Notes under the pieces: model-generated
Told to the model about the DNA's origin: nothing
The model's input: the letters and a program-made list of their open reading frames with translations, nothing else
Databases searched by the model: none
In this document: one piece after another, positions 1 through 6,338 of the stretch
Layout of the letters: each line of letters starts with the position of its first letter
How positions within the stretch are numbered: the first letter of the stretch is position 1
Assembly: GCF_019295435.1 (NCBI RefSeq)
Contig: NZ_WEKL01000010.1
Coordinates: forward strand, 1 to 64,000
Length of the DNA: 64,000 bases
From: Aquimarina litoralis
GTDB taxonomy: Bacteria; Bacteroidota; Bacteroidia; Flavobacteriales; Flavobacteriaceae
Reading direction: 5' to 3'
Made by a program: the position numbers and the translations under genes

Positions 1-31
1 GAGCTTGTAGGTTCGAGTCCTACTACTTCCA
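1..31 (+). tRNA. tRNA 3' end, cut by the window edge
   Basis: Only the T-arm (7-11 paired with 19-23, loop ttcgagt) and the 3' acceptor strand tacttcc (24-30) with discriminator A31 are inside the window. The anticodon is outside, so identity cannot be given. It shows that the tRNA array starts to the left of position 1. No CCA is encoded. Confidence 0.7.
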
Positions 32-46
32 CTTAAACAAACATAT

Positions 47-117
47 GCGCTTTTAGTGTAAGGGTAGCACGAAGGTCTCCAACACCTTTAGTCTAGGTTC
101 AAATCCTAGCGAGCGCG
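47..117 (+). tRNA. tRNA-Trp (CCA), compact form
   Basis: Acceptor strands gcgcttt (47-53) and cgagcgc (110-116) pair with wobbles and one mismatch. The anticodon stem aaggt/acctt closes a loop ctccaac with anticodon CCA, and the T-arm is ctagg-ttcaaat-cctag. Discriminator G117 fits Trp. The D-arm is short (gtgtaagggtagcac), unlike standard host tRNAs and more like phage or organelle tRNAs. CCA is not encoded. Confidence 0.85.
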
Positions 118-167
118 CTAAGTTAAATGTTGATTTATTTTAAAAGCCCCCTTTTCAAGGGAAAAAT

Positions 168-240
168 AGTATCGTAGCACAACGGCTAGTGCACCCGACT
201 GTCTCTCGGAAGGTTGCGGGTTCGAATCCCGTCGGTACTG
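168..240 (+). tRNA. tRNA-Asp (GTC)
   Basis: The acceptor agtatcg/cggtact pairs over 7 of 7 positions including wobble. The anticodon loop ctgtctc gives GTC, the T-arm gcggg-ttcgaat-cccgt is intact, and the discriminator is G, which fits Asp. Residue 37 is a pyrimidine and the outer anticodon-stem pair is mismatched, which is unusual for a working tRNA. Confidence 0.8.
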
Positions 241-312
241 CTGTAAAGAATAAAGGAATCAAACTTTATTCAGTACATCTTGTCAATCATTTCTCATTGA
301 CAAAAGAAATAA

Positions 313-455
313 GGAAGAGCAAGTCAATTGACGGTAGCCGCAGTCTTGACCCGAGCCGGGCAGGCGAACAGATGAACACTTTTATAAGTAGAACTGATGT
401 GAATAAAACTGTTAAGAGCAAATGACTTGTGTGGTTTCGACTCCCACTTCTTCCG
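313..455 (+). tRNA. interrupted tRNA-like element, enlarged anticodon loop
   Basis: The 5' acceptor ggaagag (313-319) pairs over 7 positions with ttcttcc (448-454). The T-arm gtggt-ttcgact-cccac is recognisable. A D-arm-like segment (cccgagccgggcagg, about 350-364) is followed by aacag, which pairs perfectly with ctgtt about 37 nt later instead of 7. A variable region with an aag/ctt stem follows, as in Tyr or Ser tRNAs. About 25 extra bases also separate the acceptor from the D-arm. The insert begins atgaacac, as does the T-loop insert at 1013. Either an interrupted tRNA or a decaying pseudogene; the isotype cannot be read safely. Confidence 0.45.
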
Positions 456-463
456 CTATTATT

Positions 464-628
464 CTAGAGGTATAACAATGGTAGTTTACCTGCCTTGGAC
501 GCGGGAAGTTGTAGGTTCGAAATGTGCGGCATTGGCTTCGCCGAATCTTAATTTGGCAAGCAAATCTACGATTTCATGAGTTCTAAATTATCAAATATCA
601 ATCTCACGAACTAATCCTGCTCTCTAAA
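464..628 (+). tRNA. tRNA-Pro (TGG) interrupted by 93 bases in the T-loop
   Basis: The body matches the intact tRNA-Pro at 713-784: anticodon stem cctgc/gcggg with loop cttggac (TGG), T-stem gtagg at 511-515. The T-loop ttcga is then interrupted. Its 3' part (at, then T-stem cctgc at 616-620 and acceptor tctctaa) resumes after about 93 bases. Acceptor pairing is 6 of 7. The insert has two local hairpins (near 531-546 and 551-565). Confidence 0.65.
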
Positions 629-633
629 CAACT

Positions 634-705
634 ATATCTATGGTGTAAATGGAAGCACAAGGGATTTCTAATCCCTAAGTCTAAGTTCAAGTCTTAGTAG
701 ATATA
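634..705 (+). tRNA. tRNA-Arg (TCT), compact form
   Basis: A perfect 7-bp acceptor (atatcta/tagatat), anticodon stem aggga/tccct with loop tttctaa (TCT), T-arm ctaag-ttcaagt-cttag and discriminator A. The D-arm (tggtgtaaatggaagcac) is short and the acceptor is all but one A/T. Confidence 0.85.
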
Positions 706-712
706 CTCATTT

Positions 713-784
713 CTGAGAAGATAACGATGGTTGTTTACCCGCTTTGGAAGCGGGAGGTTGTAGGTTCGAATCCTGCTTCTCAGA
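713..784 (+). tRNA. tRNA-Pro (TGG)
   Basis: A perfect 7-bp acceptor ctgagaa/ttctcag, anticodon stem cccgc/gcggg with loop tttggaa (TGG), T-arm gtagg-ttcgaat-cctgc and discriminator A784. It is the uninterrupted relative of the element at 464-628. Confidence 0.9.
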
Positions 785-790
785 CAAACT

Positions 791-863
791 GCTCTGTTCG
801 TATAATGGTTTAGTACACCTCACTTTCTATGAGGAAATAGGAGTTCGATTCTCCTACAGAGTA
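791..863 (+). tRNA. tRNA-Glu (TTC)
   Basis: The acceptor gctctgt/acagagt has one G-U pair. The anticodon stem cctca/tgagg holds loop ctttcta (TTC), and the T-arm is aggag-ttcgatt-ctcct. All arms are intact and no CCA is encoded. Confidence 0.85.
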
Positions 864-873
864 CAATTTTAAT

Positions 874-947
874 ACAGGAATGGCGGAATTGGCATACGCG
901 CTTGACTTAGAATCAAGATCCTGAGAGTTCGAATCTCTCTTCCTGTA
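874..947 (+). tRNA. tRNA-Leu (TAG) without the long variable arm
   Basis: Perfect acceptor acaggaa/ttcctgt, Leu-type D-arm (tggcggaattggcatacgc), anticodon stem cttga/tcaag with loop cttagaa (TAG), T-arm gagag-ttcgaat-ctctc, discriminator A. Only 5 nt (atcct) lie between the anticodon and T stems. Bacterial tRNA-Leu is normally class II with a long variable arm, so this is an aberrant short-armed form. Confidence 0.8.
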
Positions 948-952
948 CAAAC

Positions 953-1072
953 GCTCCGCTAGCCCAAATGGGAGAGGCATCCGGTTTAAGCCCGGCTCAG
1001 TCTTGGTTCGAAATGAACACATTCACGATTTCGTAAAACAATAGGAATTGATGAGTAATCCAAGGTGGAGTA
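953..1072 (+). tRNA. tRNA-Leu (TAA) interrupted by 46 bases in the T-loop
   Basis: Apart from 2 substitutions the body is identical to the intact copy at 1403-1476. The T-loop reads ttcgaa, then 46 extra bases (about 1013-1058), then t and T-stem ccaag. Acceptor gctccgc/gtggagt, D-arm, anticodon (TAA) and T-stem cttgg/ccaag are otherwise preserved. The insert starts atgaacac and ends gagtaa. Confidence 0.75.
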
Positions 1073-1079
1073 CAAACTT

Positions 1080-1162
1080 AGGCTCATGGTGTAAATGGAA
1101 GCACCCAAGGTTACGACCCTTGAAGTATAGGTTCCCCCGAAGTTTCGGGACTATTGAGCTTA
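1080..1162 (+). tRNA. tRNA-Arg (ACG) with a hairpin inserted in the T-loop
   Basis: Acceptor aggctca/tgagctt (7 pairs with one wobble), anticodon stem caagg/ccttg with loop ttacgac (ACG). The T-stem starts atagg and ends ctat, but the T-loop is about 18 nt. It contains the perfect hairpin cccgaa-gt-ttcggg (1136-1149) in place of the usual 7-nt loop. Confidence 0.65.
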
Positions 1163-1167
1163 CAAAT

Positions 1168-1238
1168 TGACCTGTGATGTAAAGGTAGCATCCAAGACTT
1201 TGACTCTTGGTGTAAAGGTTCGAATCCTTTCAGGTCAT
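1168..1238 (+). tRNA. tRNA-Gln (TTG)
   Basis: A perfect acceptor tgacctg/caggtca, anticodon stem caaga/tcttg with loop ctttgac (TTG), T-arm aaagg-ttcgaat-ccttt. The base after the acceptor is T, whereas Gln tRNAs normally have G at the discriminator position. The D-arm is compact. Confidence 0.85.
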
Positions 1239-1244
1239 CGTGAC

Positions 1245-1316
1245 TAAGGTATAACTCAGTGGTAGAGTACCGCGGCCATATCGCGGGAGTCTTGGGTTCG
1301 ATTCCCAATGCCTTTG
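1245..1316 (+). tRNA. tRNA-Met-like (CAT) with C33
   Basis: The D-arm is normal (actcagtggtagagt). The anticodon stem ccgcg/cgcgg closes loop gccatat, giving CAT (Met, or Ile2 if lysidine-modified). Position 33 is C where U is almost universal. The T-arm ttggg-ttcgatt-cccaa is intact, and the acceptor pairs 6 of 7 (first pair T-T). Confidence 0.7.
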
Positions 1317-1323
1317 AAATAAT

Positions 1324-1397
1324 GCTGGAATGGCAGAATAGGAATACACACTTGACTTAGCATCAAGATCCTAAAAATTCAAATCTCCATTCTCGCA
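1324..1397 (+). pseudogene. degenerate tRNA-Leu (TAG) copy
   Basis: It resembles the tRNA at 874-947: the same anticodon arm (cttga, loop cttagca, tcaag). The T-stem is destroyed (aaaaa against ctcca) and the acceptor gctggaa/ttctcgc has an internal mismatch. It is probably a decayed duplicate, unless a T-arm-less RNA is functional. Confidence 0.6.
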
Positions 1398-1402
1398 CAA
1401 AT

Positions 1403-1476
1403 GCTCCGCTAGCCCAAATGGCAGAGGCATCCGGTTTAAGCCCGGTTCAGTCTTGGTTCGAATCCAAGGTGGAGTA
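1403..1476 (+). tRNA. tRNA-Leu (TAA) without the long variable arm
   Basis: Acceptor gctccgc/gtggagt, anticodon stem ccgg/ccgg with loop tttaagc (TAA), T-arm cttgg-ttcgaat-ccaag, discriminator A. The variable region has only about 5 nt, so the Leu identity conflicts with the class I shape. It is the intact paralogue of the interrupted element at 953-1072. Confidence 0.8.
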
Positions 1477-1497
1477 CAATTTAATAAGTCGTAGTAC

Positions 1498-2352
1498 TTA
1501 TTTCTTACTACGAATTCCCAAAAATATCGCTAATCCTCCTGTAAAAAACATTAGTAAACTATAGACGGCTGGAGCAATAGCGTATGATGTACTATGTAGG
1601 ATGGCAATTGCTATCGAGATTGCAAGTGTTCCATTTTGAATACCTGACTCTATTCCTATAGAAATAGCACCTCGATGATGCACTTTTAAAAGCTTAGCAG
1701 AATAATACCCTATTGCCATGGTTAAAATATTCAATAAGAAAGCTACTAATCCAGCTTCTCGTAAATAGGAAACGAAATTGTCCTTTTCCTTAACCAAAAT
1801 ACCAATAATAACCAGTGCTAGTACGATTGCAGAGGCTATTCTGACTGGTTTTGCCATTTTCAGCGCGAAACCTTCATTATATTTTCTAATAATCATACCT
1901 ATAGAAACAGGTATAATGATAATAACAAAAATCTGGATGATTGTTTCTACGACATTCAATTGTATTGTTTGATTCTCTGATAAAAAATGAAGTAAAGAAA
2001 AATTGACTATAAATGGTATAGTAATAATAGTAATCAAACTACTAAAAGCCGTAAGTGTAACAGATAATGCAGTATCACCATGTGCCAAATGAGAGATTAA
2101 ATTAGAAGTAGCTCCGCCAGGACAAGCAGCCAATATCATAATTCCAATTGCAATTTCTGATTCTAAGGATAATACAGATACCAAAGTAAAAGCTACTAAA
2201 GGTAAAATTAAAAGTTGATTTATAAGGCCAACCAGAATGGCTTTTGGGTAGATTAGTATTCTTTTGAAGTCAGATGTAACTAATGATAATCCCATCCCTA
2301 GCATAATGATTATCAAGGATGCTGCCAATATAATAGTTGAAATGTTATCCAT
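1498..2352 (-). CDS. BASS-family (bile acid:sodium symporter-like) transporter
   Basis: A 284-residue integral membrane protein with about 9-10 hydrophobic helices. The motif ACPGGATSN at residues 76-84 is typical of the bile acid:Na+ symporter (BASS) family, which imports organic anions together with sodium. The length fits short bacterial BASS proteins. It lies alone on the - strand between + strand tRNA genes, so it interrupts the array and probably has its own promoter. Start MDNIS (ATG at 2352) leaves a 90-bp gap to tRNA-His. The substrate cannot be told from sequence, and no function linked to tRNA is evident. Confidence 0.85.
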   Translation of the reverse strand: MDNISTIILAASLIIIMLGMGLSLVTSDFKRILIYPKAILVGLINQLLILPLVAFTLVSVLSLESEIAIGIMILAACPGGATSNLISHLAHGDTALSVTLTAFSSLITIITIPFIVNFSLLHFLSENQTIQLNVVETIIQIFVIIIIPVSIGMIIRKYNEGFALKMAKPVRIASAIVLALVIIGILVKEKDNFVSYLREAGLVAFLLNILTMAIGYYSAKLLKVHHRGAISIGIESGIQNGTLAISIAIAILHSTSYAIAPAVYSLLMFFTGGLAIFLGIRSKK

Positions 2353-2442
2353 TTAGGTTGTTTTCGAATGTATAGCCTAATATAAAGATTTATTTATCAA
2401 AATGCTTAAAATCAAATAATCAAACACAAACATTTTAAATAT

Positions 2443-2515
2443 GGTGTCTCTAGCTTATCTGGTAAAGCATCTCACTGTGAATGAGAGGAACAGGGTTCGA
2501 GTCCCGGAGTACACC
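2443..2515 (+). tRNA. tRNA-His (GTG)
   Basis: Anticodon stem tctca/tgaga with loop ctgtgaa (GTG). G2443 and C2515 fit the His-specific G-1:C73 pair. The acceptor gtgtctc/agtacac has two mismatches near its base and one T-stem pair is mismatched, so this copy is also imperfect. Confidence 0.8.
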
Positions 2516-2521
2516 CAAAAA

Positions 2522-2594
2522 GGAATAGTAGCAAAGTTGGTCAATGCGGCGGATTGAAGATCCGACGATACAGGTTCGATTCCTGTCTGTTCCA
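2522..2594 (+). tRNA. tRNA-Phe (GAA)
   Basis: Acceptor ggaatag/ctgttcc (7 pairs with one wobble), anticodon loop ttgaaga (GAA), T-arm acagg-ttcgatt-cctgt, discriminator A2594. It lies 6 bp after the tRNA-His element and 22 bp before the next coding region, so all may share one transcript. Confidence 0.85.
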
Positions 2595-2616
2595 CTAATT
2601 TTTAAATTTTACAACT

Positions 2617-2937
2617 ATGAAAAATAATTTATTACAAAGGTTTTTATGTAGAACTGAAGATACAGGAAGATTCATAGTTCAATCCAAGATTACTGGTATT
2701 ACCTATTTCGTAGAACCAATAGATAATGGGAAACCAGATAAACTTTGGGGTGACCTGGATCCTGCTACCAAAAAACTTACCGGTGATTACGGTAATGTAC
2801 GAAGAGGTGCGATTAAAAAAGAAGAGTCTTTAATCTCTAAAGAAAATGGGTTTAAAAACATCTCTATTTTCAAAGGAAGTCCTTTAGGAGAAATCGATAG
2901 ACGAGATCGCGAATATGAAATATCATATAACCCGTGA
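2617..2937 (+). CDS. unknown 106-residue protein inside the tRNA array
   Basis: I do not recognise this protein. It is small, soluble and highly charged, with no signal peptide or membrane segment. It begins MKNNLLQRFLCRTEDTGRF and has a polar middle (PIDNGKPDKLWGDLDP) and a C-terminal part rich in Arg, Glu and Lys. The ATG start follows an A/T-rich leader 22 bp after tRNA-Phe. The next small gene begins 23 bp downstream, so the two are probably co-transcribed with the tRNAs. Its position between tRNA-like elements and the slipin gene suggests an RNA-related role, but this is context only. Confidence 0.6.
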   Translation: MKNNLLQRFLCRTEDTGRFIVQSKITGITYFVEPIDNGKPDKLWGDLDPATKKLTGDYGNVRRGAIKKEESLISKENGFKNISIFKGSPLGEIDRRDREYEISYNP

Positions 2938-2960
2938 GACAATTTTAAAAATTAAAAAAA

Positions 2961-3125
2961 ATGAAAACACAACATATACTTACCAAAGAAAAAACAAAAA
3001 CTGGTTTCCAATTCCTATTCTCAAAATGGGTAACGAAATATGTAGATTCCATGACAAAGGCCTTATATCCGGATACGGATACACCTAATGTAAAAAACGA
3101 CCAAAACCGAATTTTTTACAAATAA
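2961..3125 (+). CDS. unknown 54-residue basic protein
   Basis: A short frame of 54 codons plus TAA, from ATG at 2961, following the 106-residue gene by 23 bp. The product begins MKTQHILTKEKTKTGF, contains an aromatic/basic middle (FQFLFSKWVTKYVDSMTKALY) and ends NDQNRIFYK. It is Lys-rich and could bind nucleic acid. I do not recognise a family. The A-rich start context (aaaaaaaATG) resembles that of its neighbour. Short length makes it less certain than the upstream gene. Confidence 0.45.
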   Translation: MKTQHILTKEKTKTGFQFLFSKWVTKYVDSMTKALYPDTDTPNVKNDQNRIFYK

Positions 3126-3126
3126 A

Positions 3127-3266
3127 TAATTACTACGCAAATAGATTGCGCTAATACATTACACCTTTGTGTAGTAATTAAAGCAAACCCTTTTATATGG
3201 GGGAAACAAATGGGGTTTGAAGTAGTGCCCTGCTATAAAGTGAGGATGAAAATAGCAGGGCTTTTG
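3127..3266 (+). ncRNA. candidate structured RNA with three successive stems
   Basis: Three strong inverted repeats follow one another. A 10-bp closing stem TAATTACTAC/GTAGTAATTA (3127-3136 with 3171-3180) encloses two small hairpins (GCAA/TTGC and ACAC/GTGT). Next is a 7-bp stem CAAACCC/GGGTTTG (3184-3190 with 3213-3219). Last is a 9-bp stem GCCCTGCTA/TAGCAGGGC (3227-3235 with 3253-3261) followed by TTTT, a plausible terminator. Either a non-coding RNA or the structured 3' untranslated region of the small genes upstream. I cannot assign it to a known family. Confidence 0.4.
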
Positions 3267-3301
3267 ATAAAATAAAGTTGAAAGCATAAATTATTAATTA
3301 G

Positions 3302-3321
3302 ATTCCAGCCTTCGCTGGAAT
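3302..3321. repeat. short dispersed palindrome followed by GACAG
   Basis: attccagc-cttc-gctggaat forms an 8-bp stem with a 4-base loop and is followed by gacag. A similar element followed by gacag occurs at 30630-30649. Such short palindromes are common between genes in this phylum. Confidence 0.6.
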
Positions 3322-3448
3322 GACAGTATCAATCAAGTCTTGTTGGGTGTTTCTGTATAGCACTATTGTATGGAGAGTTGCAGTTTTGTATGACCTCTTT
3401 ATATACAACTTGGTTTGAAGGTTAGGCTATTAACCAAATAATAGTCAC

Positions 3449-3540
3449 ACTCTATAGGACATGGGTTCGATTCCCATCGGGACCACTAAAAACAGATACA
3501 AAATGGTCCCGTAGCTCAGTGGCTAGAGCGATAGATTTTT
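3449..3540 (+). tRNA. candidate permuted tRNA-Lys (TTT): 3' half then 5' half
   Basis: A 3' half (3449-3485: loop end ac, anticodon strand tctat, variable aggac, T-arm atggg-ttcgatt-cccat, acceptor cgggacc, discriminator A) precedes a 5' half (3505-3540: acceptor ggtcccg, ta, D-arm gctc-agtggcta-gagc, g, anticodon strand ataga, ttttt). The spacer is 19 nt. Joined as 5' half plus 3' half they give exactly 73 nt, with a perfect 7-bp acceptor, a perfect 5-bp anticodon stem and loop tttttac (TTT). No ggtcccg partner lies upstream. The alternative is remnants of two tandem tRNA-Lys copies. Confidence 0.55.
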
Positions 3541-3617
3541 TGTTCATGTGGGTTCGAGTCCCACTATCTTTTTAGAGATATGGCGGAATTGGTAAACGCA
3601 CTAGATTAGGGATCTGG
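3541..3617 (+). tRNA. candidate permuted tRNA, Leu-like 5' half (weaker case)
   Basis: A 3' half (T-arm gtggg-ttcgagt-cccac at 3548-3564, acceptor tatcttt) is followed after 2 nt by a 5' half (acceptor agagata at 3574-3580, Leu-type D-arm gcggaattggtaaacgc, anticodon stem ctaga/tctgg). The acceptor strands pair over 7 of 7 positions including one wobble. The loop ttaggga would give anticodon AGG, which conflicts with the Leu-type D-arm. The spacer is too short to hold a discriminator base, so this pair is less convincing than its neighbours. Confidence 0.35.
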
Positions 3618-3648
3618 CGAACAAGGCACTGAAAATGCCTTTTACATT

Positions 3649-3730
3649 GCATGGGTTCGAATCCCATCGAGACCACCAAATTAGGTTTCGTAGCTCAGTT
3701 AGGTAGAGCACTACACTCATAATGTAGGAT
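3649..3730 (+). tRNA. candidate permuted tRNA-Met (CAT): 3' half then 5' half
   Basis: A 3' half (T-arm atggg-ttcgaat-cccat, acceptor cgagacc, discriminator A3675) is followed after 8 nt by a 5' half (acceptor ggtttcg at 3684-3690, D-arm gctc-agttaggta-gagc, anticodon stem ctaca/tgtag with loop ctcataa, CAT). The acceptor strands pair 7 of 7 with one wobble. I see no cgagacc-like strand downstream for the 5' half. Joined in reverse order the pieces give a canonical elongator-Met-like cloverleaf with the join in the variable loop. Confidence 0.5.
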
Positions 3731-3733
3731 AAA

Positions 3734-3839
3734 AGCTAATCATCTTATAAAACTGATTGACAAAAACTGTGAACTCAAATCTGTTTTTATAGTGCTCTTG
3801 CTATAAAAACAATCTTGAAAGTACTTTGAAATATTAGCT
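3734..3839 (+). other. inverted repeats before the slipin gene
   Basis: AGCTAAT (3734-3740) is complementary to ATTAGCT (3833-3839). It encloses a perfect 11-bp hairpin TGTTTTTATAG/CTATAAAAACA (3782-3792 with 3801-3811). The structure directly follows the last tRNA 5' half, so it could be the tail of that transcript or a leader of the slipin mRNA. From 3840 to 4000 I see only A/T-rich sequence. Confidence 0.4.
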
Positions 3840-4000
3840 ATGCTATGATTGGAAATAATTACTTTTTTCTATCCAAATATGAAATTATTGTATATAAAAT
3901 ACAGATCTTTTATTTCGATATTAAAAACTACTTATGACCGATATAACATCCTATAATTTCCGTATTGGAAAGATGATTTGTTTTCACTGTTTTTTAAAAA

Positions 4001-5188
4001 ATGAAATCGATAATACCTCCGTTACAGGATTATCATCCAATTAATGTTAAATCTGTCTGTTCATTAACAGACATAAAAACTAAGAAAATGAAACGAGTAC
4101 GAATCAATGCTGGTACAGTGGGATTGGTTTTCAGGAAAGGTGACTACAATCGTGTAATTACACAAGGAACTCATTGGTTAAGATTTGATGAACGTATAAC
4201 AAAATACGATCTTTCTAAACCTTTCACGACTCCTGTAGCACTAGAGATCTTATTGAAAGATACAACATTGGAGGATATGCTACATGTGATTGAGGTAAAA
4301 GACAATGAAATTGTTTTGGTATATGAAAATGGAAATCTCAAAAGTGTTTTTCCTGCAGGTAGATATACGCTATGGAATAGTTTATACACTTATAAATTTA
4401 TAAGAATAGATCTTAGTAAAATTTATATCACAGAAAAAATTGAAAAGTCATTGTTCAGTAACTACTCCATCAGCAAGTACATTAGAACTTTTGAGGTAGC
4501 AGCCTATGAAAAAGCTGTACTTATCGTGGATGATGTATATAGTAAAACACTGAATAGTGGTACATATCGTTTCTGGAAAAATGATACAACCATTAAAATT
4601 GCCAAAGTAGATCTACGTCAATTACAACTGGAAGTAGCTGGTCAAGAGCTATTAACCAAGGATAAAGCTGCTATTCGAATCAATTTCGATGTACAGTATA
4701 AGGTAGTAGATATAGAAAAAGCTTTGCTTGATAACAAAGACTATTCAAGACAATTATATATCGCGATGCAATTAGCACTAAGAGCTTTCGTAGGAAATTA
4801 CACGTTAGATGAATTACTGGAACGTAAAGATAGTATGGCAAATGCAATACTAGAATCTACAAAAAACCAAGTAATCAAACTAGGTGTAAAAGTATTGAAT
4901 TGTGGTATCAGAGATATCATTCTGACTGGTGAAATGAAAGAAATCATGAACCAAGTTCTGATTGCACAAAAGAAAGCTCAGGCTAATACTATTACCAGAC
5001 GTGAAGAAACTGCATCAACCAGAAGTTTGCTAAATACTGCAAAGCTTATGGAGGATAATGCTATGCTCTATAAGCTAAAAGAAATGGAGTATGTAGAGAA
5101 AATTGCTGATAAAATTGGTGAAATAACAGTTTCTGGTAATGATGGTGTAGTAAAACAATTGAAGGATATATTCTCTACGAATAAATAA
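4001..5188 (+). CDS. SPFH/Band-7 domain protein (slipin)
   Basis: A 395-residue slipin-type SPFH protein. The core VRINAGTVGLVFRKGDYNRV near residue 33 and the SPFH stretch up to about residue 320 are followed by an Ala/Lys/Arg/Glu-rich helical segment (QKKAQANTITRREET) and a second helix, suited to oligomer rings. No clear membrane helix is present. In other bacteria such proteins accompany the RNA ligase RtcB and tRNA-like RNAs in proposed RNA-repair systems. No ligase is inside this window, but the array continues beyond the left edge. The ATG at 4001 follows aaaaa; an internal ATG at 4088 (MKRVRINAG) would match the usual slipin start, so the first 29 residues are uncertain. Confidence 0.8.
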   Translation: MKSIIPPLQDYHPINVKSVCSLTDIKTKKMKRVRINAGTVGLVFRKGDYNRVITQGTHWLRFDERITKYDLSKPFTTPVALEILLKDTTLEDMLHVIEVKDNEIVLVYENGNLKSVFPAGRYTLWNSLYTYKFIRIDLSKIYITEKIEKSLFSNYSISKYIRTFEVAAYEKAVLIVDDVYSKTLNSGTYRFWKNDTTIKIAKVDLRQLQLEVAGQELLTKDKAAIRINFDVQYKVVDIEKALLDNKDYSRQLYIAMQLALRAFVGNYTLDELLERKDSMANAILESTKNQVIKLGVKVLNCGIRDIILTGEMKEIMNQVLIAQKKAQANTITRREETASTRSLLNTAKLMEDNAMLYKLKEMEYVEKIADKIGEITVSGNDGVVKQLKDIFSTNK

Positions 5189-5192
5189 TACT

Positions 5193-5229
5193 AAAAAATG
5201 TGTGGATCCCTAGGGTTTACGCATTTTTT
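5193..5229. terminator. terminator after the slipin gene
   Basis: AAAAATGTGT pairs with ACGCATTTTT around a loop, followed by a T run. It lies 5 bp after the slipin stop codon and ends the island transcript. Confidence 0.7.
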
Positions 5230-5274
5230 TTATTCCTGAATAATATTCACATGAAGATTTATAAAATCATAGAA

Positions 5275-5408
5275 AAACAAAAAAGAGCGTCTCCACGCTC
5301 TTTTTCTTCACACAAATCATCTTAATTTAGGGGCTTATTCTAAAATTAAAACTCACTTTTTTAAAATTGCTTTCACCTTGGGGAAAATGAAAGCACTAAC
5401 TCATTAAC
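5275..5408 (-). ncRNA. small RNA gene, family copy 1
   Basis: About 135 nt read on the - strand. It has a promoter at 5415-5446 and ends in a strong intrinsic terminator (stem agagcg/cgctct with a T run, 5280-5305). Inside is a conserved hairpin GCTTTCA/TGAAAGC with a C-rich loop, and a second stem near the conserved aagcccct. Three near-identical copies lie at 13921-14685. No reading frame is conserved. It could belong to a described flavobacterial RNA motif such as Flavo-1, but I cannot confirm this. Confidence 0.7.
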
Positions 5409-5414
5409 TCTGGT

Positions 5415-5446
5415 GTAAAGATACAATCATTTTTTAATCCACCAAA
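5415..5446 (-). promoter_or_regulatory. promoter of small RNA copy 1
   Basis: On the - strand TTTG (5443-5446) lies 19 bases before TATCTTTAC (5415-5423), close to the phylum consensus TTTG-N17-20-TAnnTTTG. Both boxes and the spacing are the same in all four copies. Confidence 0.7.
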
Positions 5447-5828
5447 CAAAAAAGTGTATTTTATCCAAAATAAACGCTTTTTAACATTTTTAATAGCCTA
5501 AATTAATTTATTTTGTAGTCTTTTTCTTTCAAATTTAAAATATTTTGATAAAAGCCTAAATTTTGGTAGGGTATATCGCTCTTACTTTGTTTTAGAGTTG
5601 TAAATTTTATGTTAGCACCAATACAATTAAAGTTTTCTAGAAATGTGGATTTAATTTAATTTTTTCACATTGGATAACTTGACATTATGTTTTAACATTA
5701 CATAAAATGAACATTTATAACTATTAATAGAGAATTAAAGTATCTGATAAGCTATCATATTTATGATACTATTTTATCTGTGCGTACCAAATAATCTATT
5801 AACTTATAGCCAACTAAACAAAAAAGAA
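5447..5828. other. gap without a gene before the sigma factor
   Basis: A/T-rich. The first 80 bases, up to about 5530, resemble the sequence at 14723-14806 beside small RNA copy 4, so they belong to that repeat. The rest holds no frame I would call. A weak promoter-like pair near 5573-5600 may serve the sigma gene. Confidence 0.4.
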
Positions 5829-6338
5829 ATGCCGGAACAAATAAGTGTATGTGACGAAAAGGTATATGACGAATTATATAGACAACACGCTGAAAAGATA
5901 TGCTACTATATTTATTACAAATATGGTGATATGGAAAAAGCTCAAGATATAGTACAAGATAGTTTTGCAAAACTTTGGGTTAATTGTTCCAAAATTATTT
6001 TTGGTGCTGCGAAAAGCTTTTTATATAAAATAGCCAATAATGCTTCTATTAATGATGCAATACATCAAAAAACAGTATTAAAATATAAATCAACACCACA
6101 AAAAACATATACTAATGAATCTCCTGAATTTCAAATGGAAGAAAAGGAATTCATGGATAAATTAAATCATGCCATTAGTGATTTAAAAGAGGGACAAAGA
6201 GAAGTTTTTCTTCTCAATAGAATTGAAAAGAAAACCTATAAAGAGATTGCAGAATTGTTAGGAATCTCAGTAAAAGCAGTTGAGAAACGAATGCATTTGG
6301 CTTTAGTAACGCTTAGAAAAAAAATTGGAAAAATCTAG
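5829..6338 (+). CDS. ECF RNA polymerase sigma factor (FecI-like)
   Basis: A 169-residue sigma-70 family protein of the extracytoplasmic-function type. Region 2 (YDELYRQHAEKICYYIYYKY, then DMEKAQDIVQDSFAKLW) binds core enzyme and the -10 element. Region 4 (TYKEIAELLGISVKAVEKRM) is the helix-turn-helix for the -35 element. I start at the ATG at 5829 (MPEQIS) because the 22 residues encoded before it are not sigma-like. The anti-sigma gene follows after 83 bp and the TonB receptor after that, the usual order of Fec-type surface-signalling systems. It probably drives the two receptor modules downstream. Confidence 0.9.
   Translation: MPEQISVCDEKVYDELYRQHAEKICYYIYYKYGDMEKAQDIVQDSFAKLWVNCSKIIFGAAKSFLYKIANNASINDAIHQKTVLKYKSTPQKTYTNESPEFQMEEKEFMDKLNHAISDLKEGQREVFLLNRIEKKTYKEIAELLGISVKAVEKRMHLALVTLRKKIGKI

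Follow-up and report, generated by a model that had tools for sequence, protein, structure and literature searches.

A family of short hairpin inserts, probably a mobile element, in tRNA gene loops of Aquimarina litoralis and other Flavobacteriia

The DNA analyzed here (the window) is the stretch of 64,000 nucleotides at positions 1 to 64,000 of contig NZ_WEKL01000010.1 of Aquimarina litoralis (assembly GCF_019295435.1), and our subject is a set of short inserts which interrupt tRNA genes near its start. The start of the window, which is also base 1 of the contig, falls within an extra tRNA array, and this array may continue in tRNAs found at an end of another contig of the same genome (C65). 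Four array tRNA genes on the forward strand were found to be interrupted: Ser in the anticodon loop, and Pro, Leu and Arg in the T-loop. Split alignment placed the 5' exon of tRNA-Pro(UGG) at 464-519, up to G57 of the T-loop, a 93-nt insert at 520-612 and the 3' exon at 613-629. The tRNA-Leu(UAA) gene comprises a 5' exon at 953-1010, a 46-nt insert of the same family at the same T-loop junction (1011-1056) and a 3' exon at 1057-1073. Intact copies of tRNA-Pro (713-785) and tRNA-Leu (1403-1477) served for comparison. That a Pro and a Leu copy are split at one T-loop position had been proposed in a first-pass annotation and was confirmed, both breaks following G57, with the exact cut uncertain by 1-2 bases owing to the flanking As. 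The Ser and Arg interruptions were absent from that annotation's Pro finding. A 55-nt insert at 350-404 separates the tRNA-Ser exons (313-349 and 405-456); as judged by eye its resemblance to the family is confined to the 3' part, and one T-stem pair of this gene copy (313-456) is broken. Within tRNA-Arg (1081-1163), a 16-nt hairpin at 1135-1150, outside the main family, stands in place of part of the T-loop. None of the four interrupted genes was called by ARAGORN. In both the Pro and Leu genes the 5' half lies upstream of the 3' half, which is not the arrangement of a circularly permuted tRNA gene. Group I and group II introns were rejected, as a core of some hundred nucleotides would be expected while these inserts measure just 46 and 93 nt, and no intron family was among the Rfam matches to window positions 1-6000 at E values up to 1.

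The inserts of the family follow the consensus G|AAATG-hairpin-CATTC-[AC or GT]-GA...GA-[GT or AC]|AA, or in pairing notation AAATG-NNNN(N)-CATTC-N1N2-GA..GA-M1(C)M2-AA. The usual element is about 45-60 nt long, at times extended by other repeat pieces. Its 5' hairpin (AATGC-NNN-GCATT) has a three-base loop which is nearly free in sequence, and it is followed by a second stem, in which the closing bases show covariation and GA is conserved on either side. Among 49 distinct T-loop-type elements, N1-M2 and N2-M1 were Watson-Crick pairs in 47 each, against means of 28.1 and 24.4 and maxima of 41 and 37 in 10,000 shuffles; kinship was not controlled in this comparison, and the pairing rule was fixed after the sequences had been inspected. 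When G-T pairs were allowed, both second-stem pairs fitted in 49/49 elements. The closing-base combinations seen were AC with GT, GT with AC, and AT with A(C)T. RNAalifold recovered the 5' hairpin and did not recover the second stem. The ends of the element are runs of A, so that target duplications of 2-3 nt, as used to recognize miniature inverted-repeat transposable elements, are indistinguishable from the element ends themselves.

The common start and end which the first-pass annotation had noted in the Pro and Leu inserts are real (AAATG at the start, ..T|AAT at the end). The octamer ACGATTTC, which occurs in both (at 568 and 1025) and had been offered as a sign of kinship, did not hold up: 7.4% of shuffled insert pairs share some octamer, and the two occurrences are non-homologous and out of register. 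In Leu the octamer belongs to the core (ATTC-AC-GA-TTTC); in Pro it falls where an additional 40-nt piece (534-573) meets the core (TTC-AT-GA-GTTC). This nested piece, added to an insert of usual size (about 52 nt), makes up the length of the Pro insert, and it also precedes other core copies off the array (L035, L045). The suggestion that one mechanism lies behind two isotypes fared better, the Pro and Leu inserts being members of one family which occupies the same junction in over ten genera and in tRNAs for 13 amino-acid types (assigned from the nearest intact tRNA). Comparison with relatives, in which unrelated random sequence at these places would have spoken against the claim, showed the inserts to be related. 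Overall, the interpretation given in that annotation is partly supported.

The distribution of the family was determined by several searches. Most hits of a permissive cloverleaf scan were false, and split alignment against intact tRNAs was used in its place. This returned 43 interrupted tRNAs from 24 genomes (26 loci), the majority of the genus Aquimarina, with at least one false (Phe of G067); a wider split search gave 78 rows, several of them false. A pattern scan of a genome collection holding one genome per species returned 40 stretches, most of which are T-loops of array tRNAs. The T-loop family was thereby found in Aquimarina and more than ten other genera of Flavobacteriia, including Chryseobacterium, Epilithonimonas, Winogradskyella, Psychroserpens, Mangrovimonas, Kordia, Tenacibaculum, Flavobacterium, Bizionia, Flaviramulus and Hyunsoonleella. 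Of 395 genomes drawn evenly from the order, 13 carried a looser form of the pattern, at least six of them outside tRNAs. A tRNA-score check was passed by 47/86 sites, and L054, L066, L192, L214 (two) and L198 were judged by eye not to be T-loop genes with a sense insert. Our compilation of 92 rows includes 28 which are other hairpins, untyped or false, and omits loci without an assigned name and those taken as duplicate genomes (L197, L202, L210, L223, L225, L232, L234, L235); inserts inherited in common enter it repeatedly, and no formal p-value is claimed. Four viral-contig loci, with near-identical non-tRNA context, were read as chance matches. Other kinds of insert were also observed. In array Leu(UAA) genes of Aquimarina, Tenacibaculum and Flaviramulus, an insert of another kind lies between the D-arm and the anticodon stem (L036, L125, L226, L228, L233), and other palindromic repeats (CCTGCCCG..CGGGCGG-like and AGCCTGT..CAGTA-like) occur in T-loops at other junctions (L042, L044, L122, L123, L207, L231). 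ARAGORN reported tRNA-like genes with a four-base anticodon, ctta or ttta, at two loci (L138, L193).

With respect to the site of insertion, all 64 family rows within tRNA genes fall in T- or anticodon loops. The T-loop inserts were 46 sense and 0 antisense, and those of the anticodon loop 9 sense and 9 antisense. These counts match the availability of the motif G|AAW on each strand, as 421 intact array tRNAs hold 154 sense and 3 antisense such sites in T-loops and 53 and 47 in anticodon loops; orientation therefore follows the strand which carries G|AAW. Stems or loop edges hold 378/675 (56%) of the G|AAW sites in the same tRNAs, and the confinement of the inserts to loops thus needs a further cause, either loop-seeking insertion or selection. 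As inserts also lie in antisense loops, DNA is the simplest target to assume, and an orientation rule which holds on either strand argues for a DNA-level element over an intron. Family copies also occur outside tRNA genes, where they come after sites resembling G|AAA, within palindromic repeats of intergenic DNA. These off-array copies were considered as integron cassettes and rejected, as spacing and open reading frames at two loci were unlike a cassette array; no integrase search was made.

We consider that the inserts probably represent one undescribed short mobile hairpin element which seeks loops and usually inactivates back-up tRNAs. Such an element would enter DNA at G|AAW where the motif sits in the loop of a tRNA gene, the strand carrying the motif setting its orientation, and may move through single-stranded or hairpin DNA. 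Insertion would usually abolish tRNA function. The hosts are mostly spare genes of a back-up array, in which loss of one copy is tolerated. Mobility is supported by the presence and absence of the insert at the same tRNA in related genomes (tRNA-Gln is interrupted in G006, G018, G020, G026 and G066 and intact in G009, G014 and G029), by the many isotypes and genera involved and by the off-array copies. Several observations weigh on the other side. Off-array sites were not enriched in predicted hairpin loops (7/45 versus 63/400 controls, with a loose site finder), and no mobilizing enzyme was found: beside 15 Y1 transposase loci (7/8 genomes) there was no convincing family copy, which gives no support to a REP-associated tyrosine transposase (RAYT; REP, repetitive extragenic palindromic) as the mover. 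In addition, no more than 2 of 21 pairs are broken in 34/46 T-loop-interrupted genes (399/446 for intact genes), and exons are less variable than inserts in 9/11 shared groups, as if still under selection.

The state of the host genes is therefore of interest. The exons of interrupted genes are often nearly perfect across genera. This is no proof of function, because genes hit in antisense have equally good exons (Glu of G023, 21/21 pairs) and because the isotypes concerned are redundant in the complete genome of one relative, G020. There the array duplicates a full housekeeping tRNA set, as expected of a back-up array, and the family-interrupted isotypes (Ser UGA, Gln UUG, Pro UGG and Phe GAA) all have intact copies outside the array. 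At least three intact tRNA genes lie within 1 kb at 39/55 pattern sites (46 loci). Signs of decay were also seen. U33 or the anticodon is changed in five T-loop-interrupted genes (Tyr of C. binzhouense, Pro of Chryseobacterium Leaf404, His of G029, Pro of F. haoranii and Pro of Winogradskyella E3R09), and further interrupted genes have broken stems, with blast-trimmed exons inflating the broken-pair counts in at least Gln of G026, Cellulophaga and C. oryctis and Leu of G025. Clean removal of the Tyr anticodon-loop inserts fails to restore GUA. As spare copies can be lost without harm, most of the interrupted genes are probably silent or decaying.

The genomic setting of the arrays bears on a different explanation. 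A slipin-like gene (Band 7/SPFH, Pfam PF01145) lies beside the window's array at 4001-5188 on the forward strand. The RNA ligase RtcB was present in 20/20 tested genomes with an insert and in 10/20 others, a comparison in which lineage and genome size are confounding factors. In 14/20 insert genomes, all of the taxonomic family of the window, the RtcB gene is found within 40 kb of the array, and RtcB is not near the array in six insert genomes of another family of the same order (Chryseobacterium-like). In two islands (G257, G000) a release-factor-like gene is found beside RtcB. On contig C65 of the window's own genome (L241:3316-5544) RtcB adjoins such a protein, which we take to be PrfH-like, approximately 32 kb from array tRNAs. 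An island resembling RNA-repair or defence loci in G312 (L243:405-13817) holds TROVE/Ro60, RtcB, TatD, an OLD-type AAA ATPase with a UvrD helicase, a pair which is presumably Gabija-like, the tRNA array and slipin. Within the window, the end of the array (3431-3558) gave a sub-threshold match to the YrlA Y RNA (43 bits, cut-off 69), and an open reading frame of 106 amino acids without a Pfam match lies between a Phe tRNA and the slipin gene (2617-2937); DNA similar to this region was seen beside the array of G009 (L002). In Anabaena, a silent tRNA operon responds to translation stress in co-regulation with rtcB and a slipin gene (PMC10272220). The two systems share an extra array besides the housekeeping tRNAs and its link with rtcB and slipin, but in the Anabaena system the link is one of co-regulation, whereas here it is one of genome position and the array bears hairpin inserts.

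This setting and the Anabaena parallel make it worth testing whether the sense inserts are small bacterial tRNA introns, in which case the precursor would be cut at both insert ends and the halves joined by RtcB, making back-up tRNAs usable, perhaps under stress alone. Splicing from RNA is possible; we rank it below a mobile element and regard it as unlikely. Removal of the insert precisely restores a 7-nt T-loop, and the proximity of RtcB and slipin, the good exons and the uniform sense orientation in T-loops all fit with splicing, as do tRNAs with two inserts (Ser in Kordia algicida, L231; Tyr in Mangrovimonas, L201, and Winogradskyella costae, L230; also in Bizionia and Psychroserpens). The T-loop orientation is, however, already accounted for by target availability, the antisense anticodon-loop inserts have good exons too, the GUA of the Tyr genes is not regained, and U33, anticodon or stems have decayed in several genes. 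The position of RtcB away from the array in the six Chryseobacterium-like genomes and the confounding of its presence also count against splicing. Archaeal tRNA introns are likewise small, occur at the T-loop among other places and are cut at bulge-helix-bulge motifs. The present genomes resemble that system in having small tRNA-gene inserts with RtcB nearby, and differ in their antisense copies, in their spare-gene hosts and in the splicing endonuclease, as an archaeal (EndA-type) enzyme (PF01974) was found in 0/18 genomes while archaeal controls were positive. A fuller version is more doubtful still: the T-loop inserts would be bacterial tRNA introns of a new type, about 50 nt long, which a nuclease cuts out while the nearby RtcB joins the halves. 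In this way an RNA-repair island would turn on its own back-up tRNAs under stress, the antisense copies being selfish spill-over.

It is improbable that the hairpin is instead the recombination site of a site-specific recombinase, similar to an integron attC site, with the inserts as payload-free cassettes. The lack of a clear target duplication, the fixed cut at G|AA and a folded site with covarying closing bases would all suit such a site. At L214:3964-4650, in a Cytophagaceae genome, four units of about 148 bp stand in tandem after an intact tRNA-Thr and before a terminator, each unit ending in a tRNA 3' end with an insert in its T-loop; in Ekhidna lutea (L208) one similar unit follows tRNA-Cys. 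These units might be the same site with a payload, but they could also be simple duplications, and no recombinase was linked to the element, though no integrase search was made. Moreover, attC sites carry conserved AAC/GTT, which is missing from the core of the T-loop class. Least probable of all is that gene conversion, acting through the common flanks (GGTTCGA/ATCC), spread a single old T-loop insertion among tRNA genes, a process which would explain the shared flanks and all-sense T-loop inserts but would require separate events for the anticodon-loop inserts in both orientations and for the off-array copies.

A mobile hairpin element, the reading we favor, has several counterparts. REP/RAYT repeats and Rickettsia palindromic elements are short bacterial palindromic repeats which, like the present family, lack genes of their own; unlike REP/RAYT, the present family has no linked Y1 transposase and is site-specific for G|AAW in tRNA loops. 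Comparable short hairpin elements are the double-hairpin elements of Allomyces mitochondria. The repetitive hairpin-forming elements of sponge mitochondria (PMC2800124) are also short, with conserved stems and variable loops, and lie in intergenic DNA and structural RNA genes. The present inserts differ from these in being bacterial, in lying in tRNA loops at one target motif and in being common to many genera. Our literature searches turned up no description of inserts like these in the tRNA genes of bacteria. If our reading is correct, these inserts would be a bacterial mobile hairpin which enters tRNA genes at one loop-presented motif and has spread across Flavobacteriia, and the arrays would provide a natural test of whether interrupted tRNAs can be spliced or repaired in bacteria which keep RtcB next to a tRNA array.
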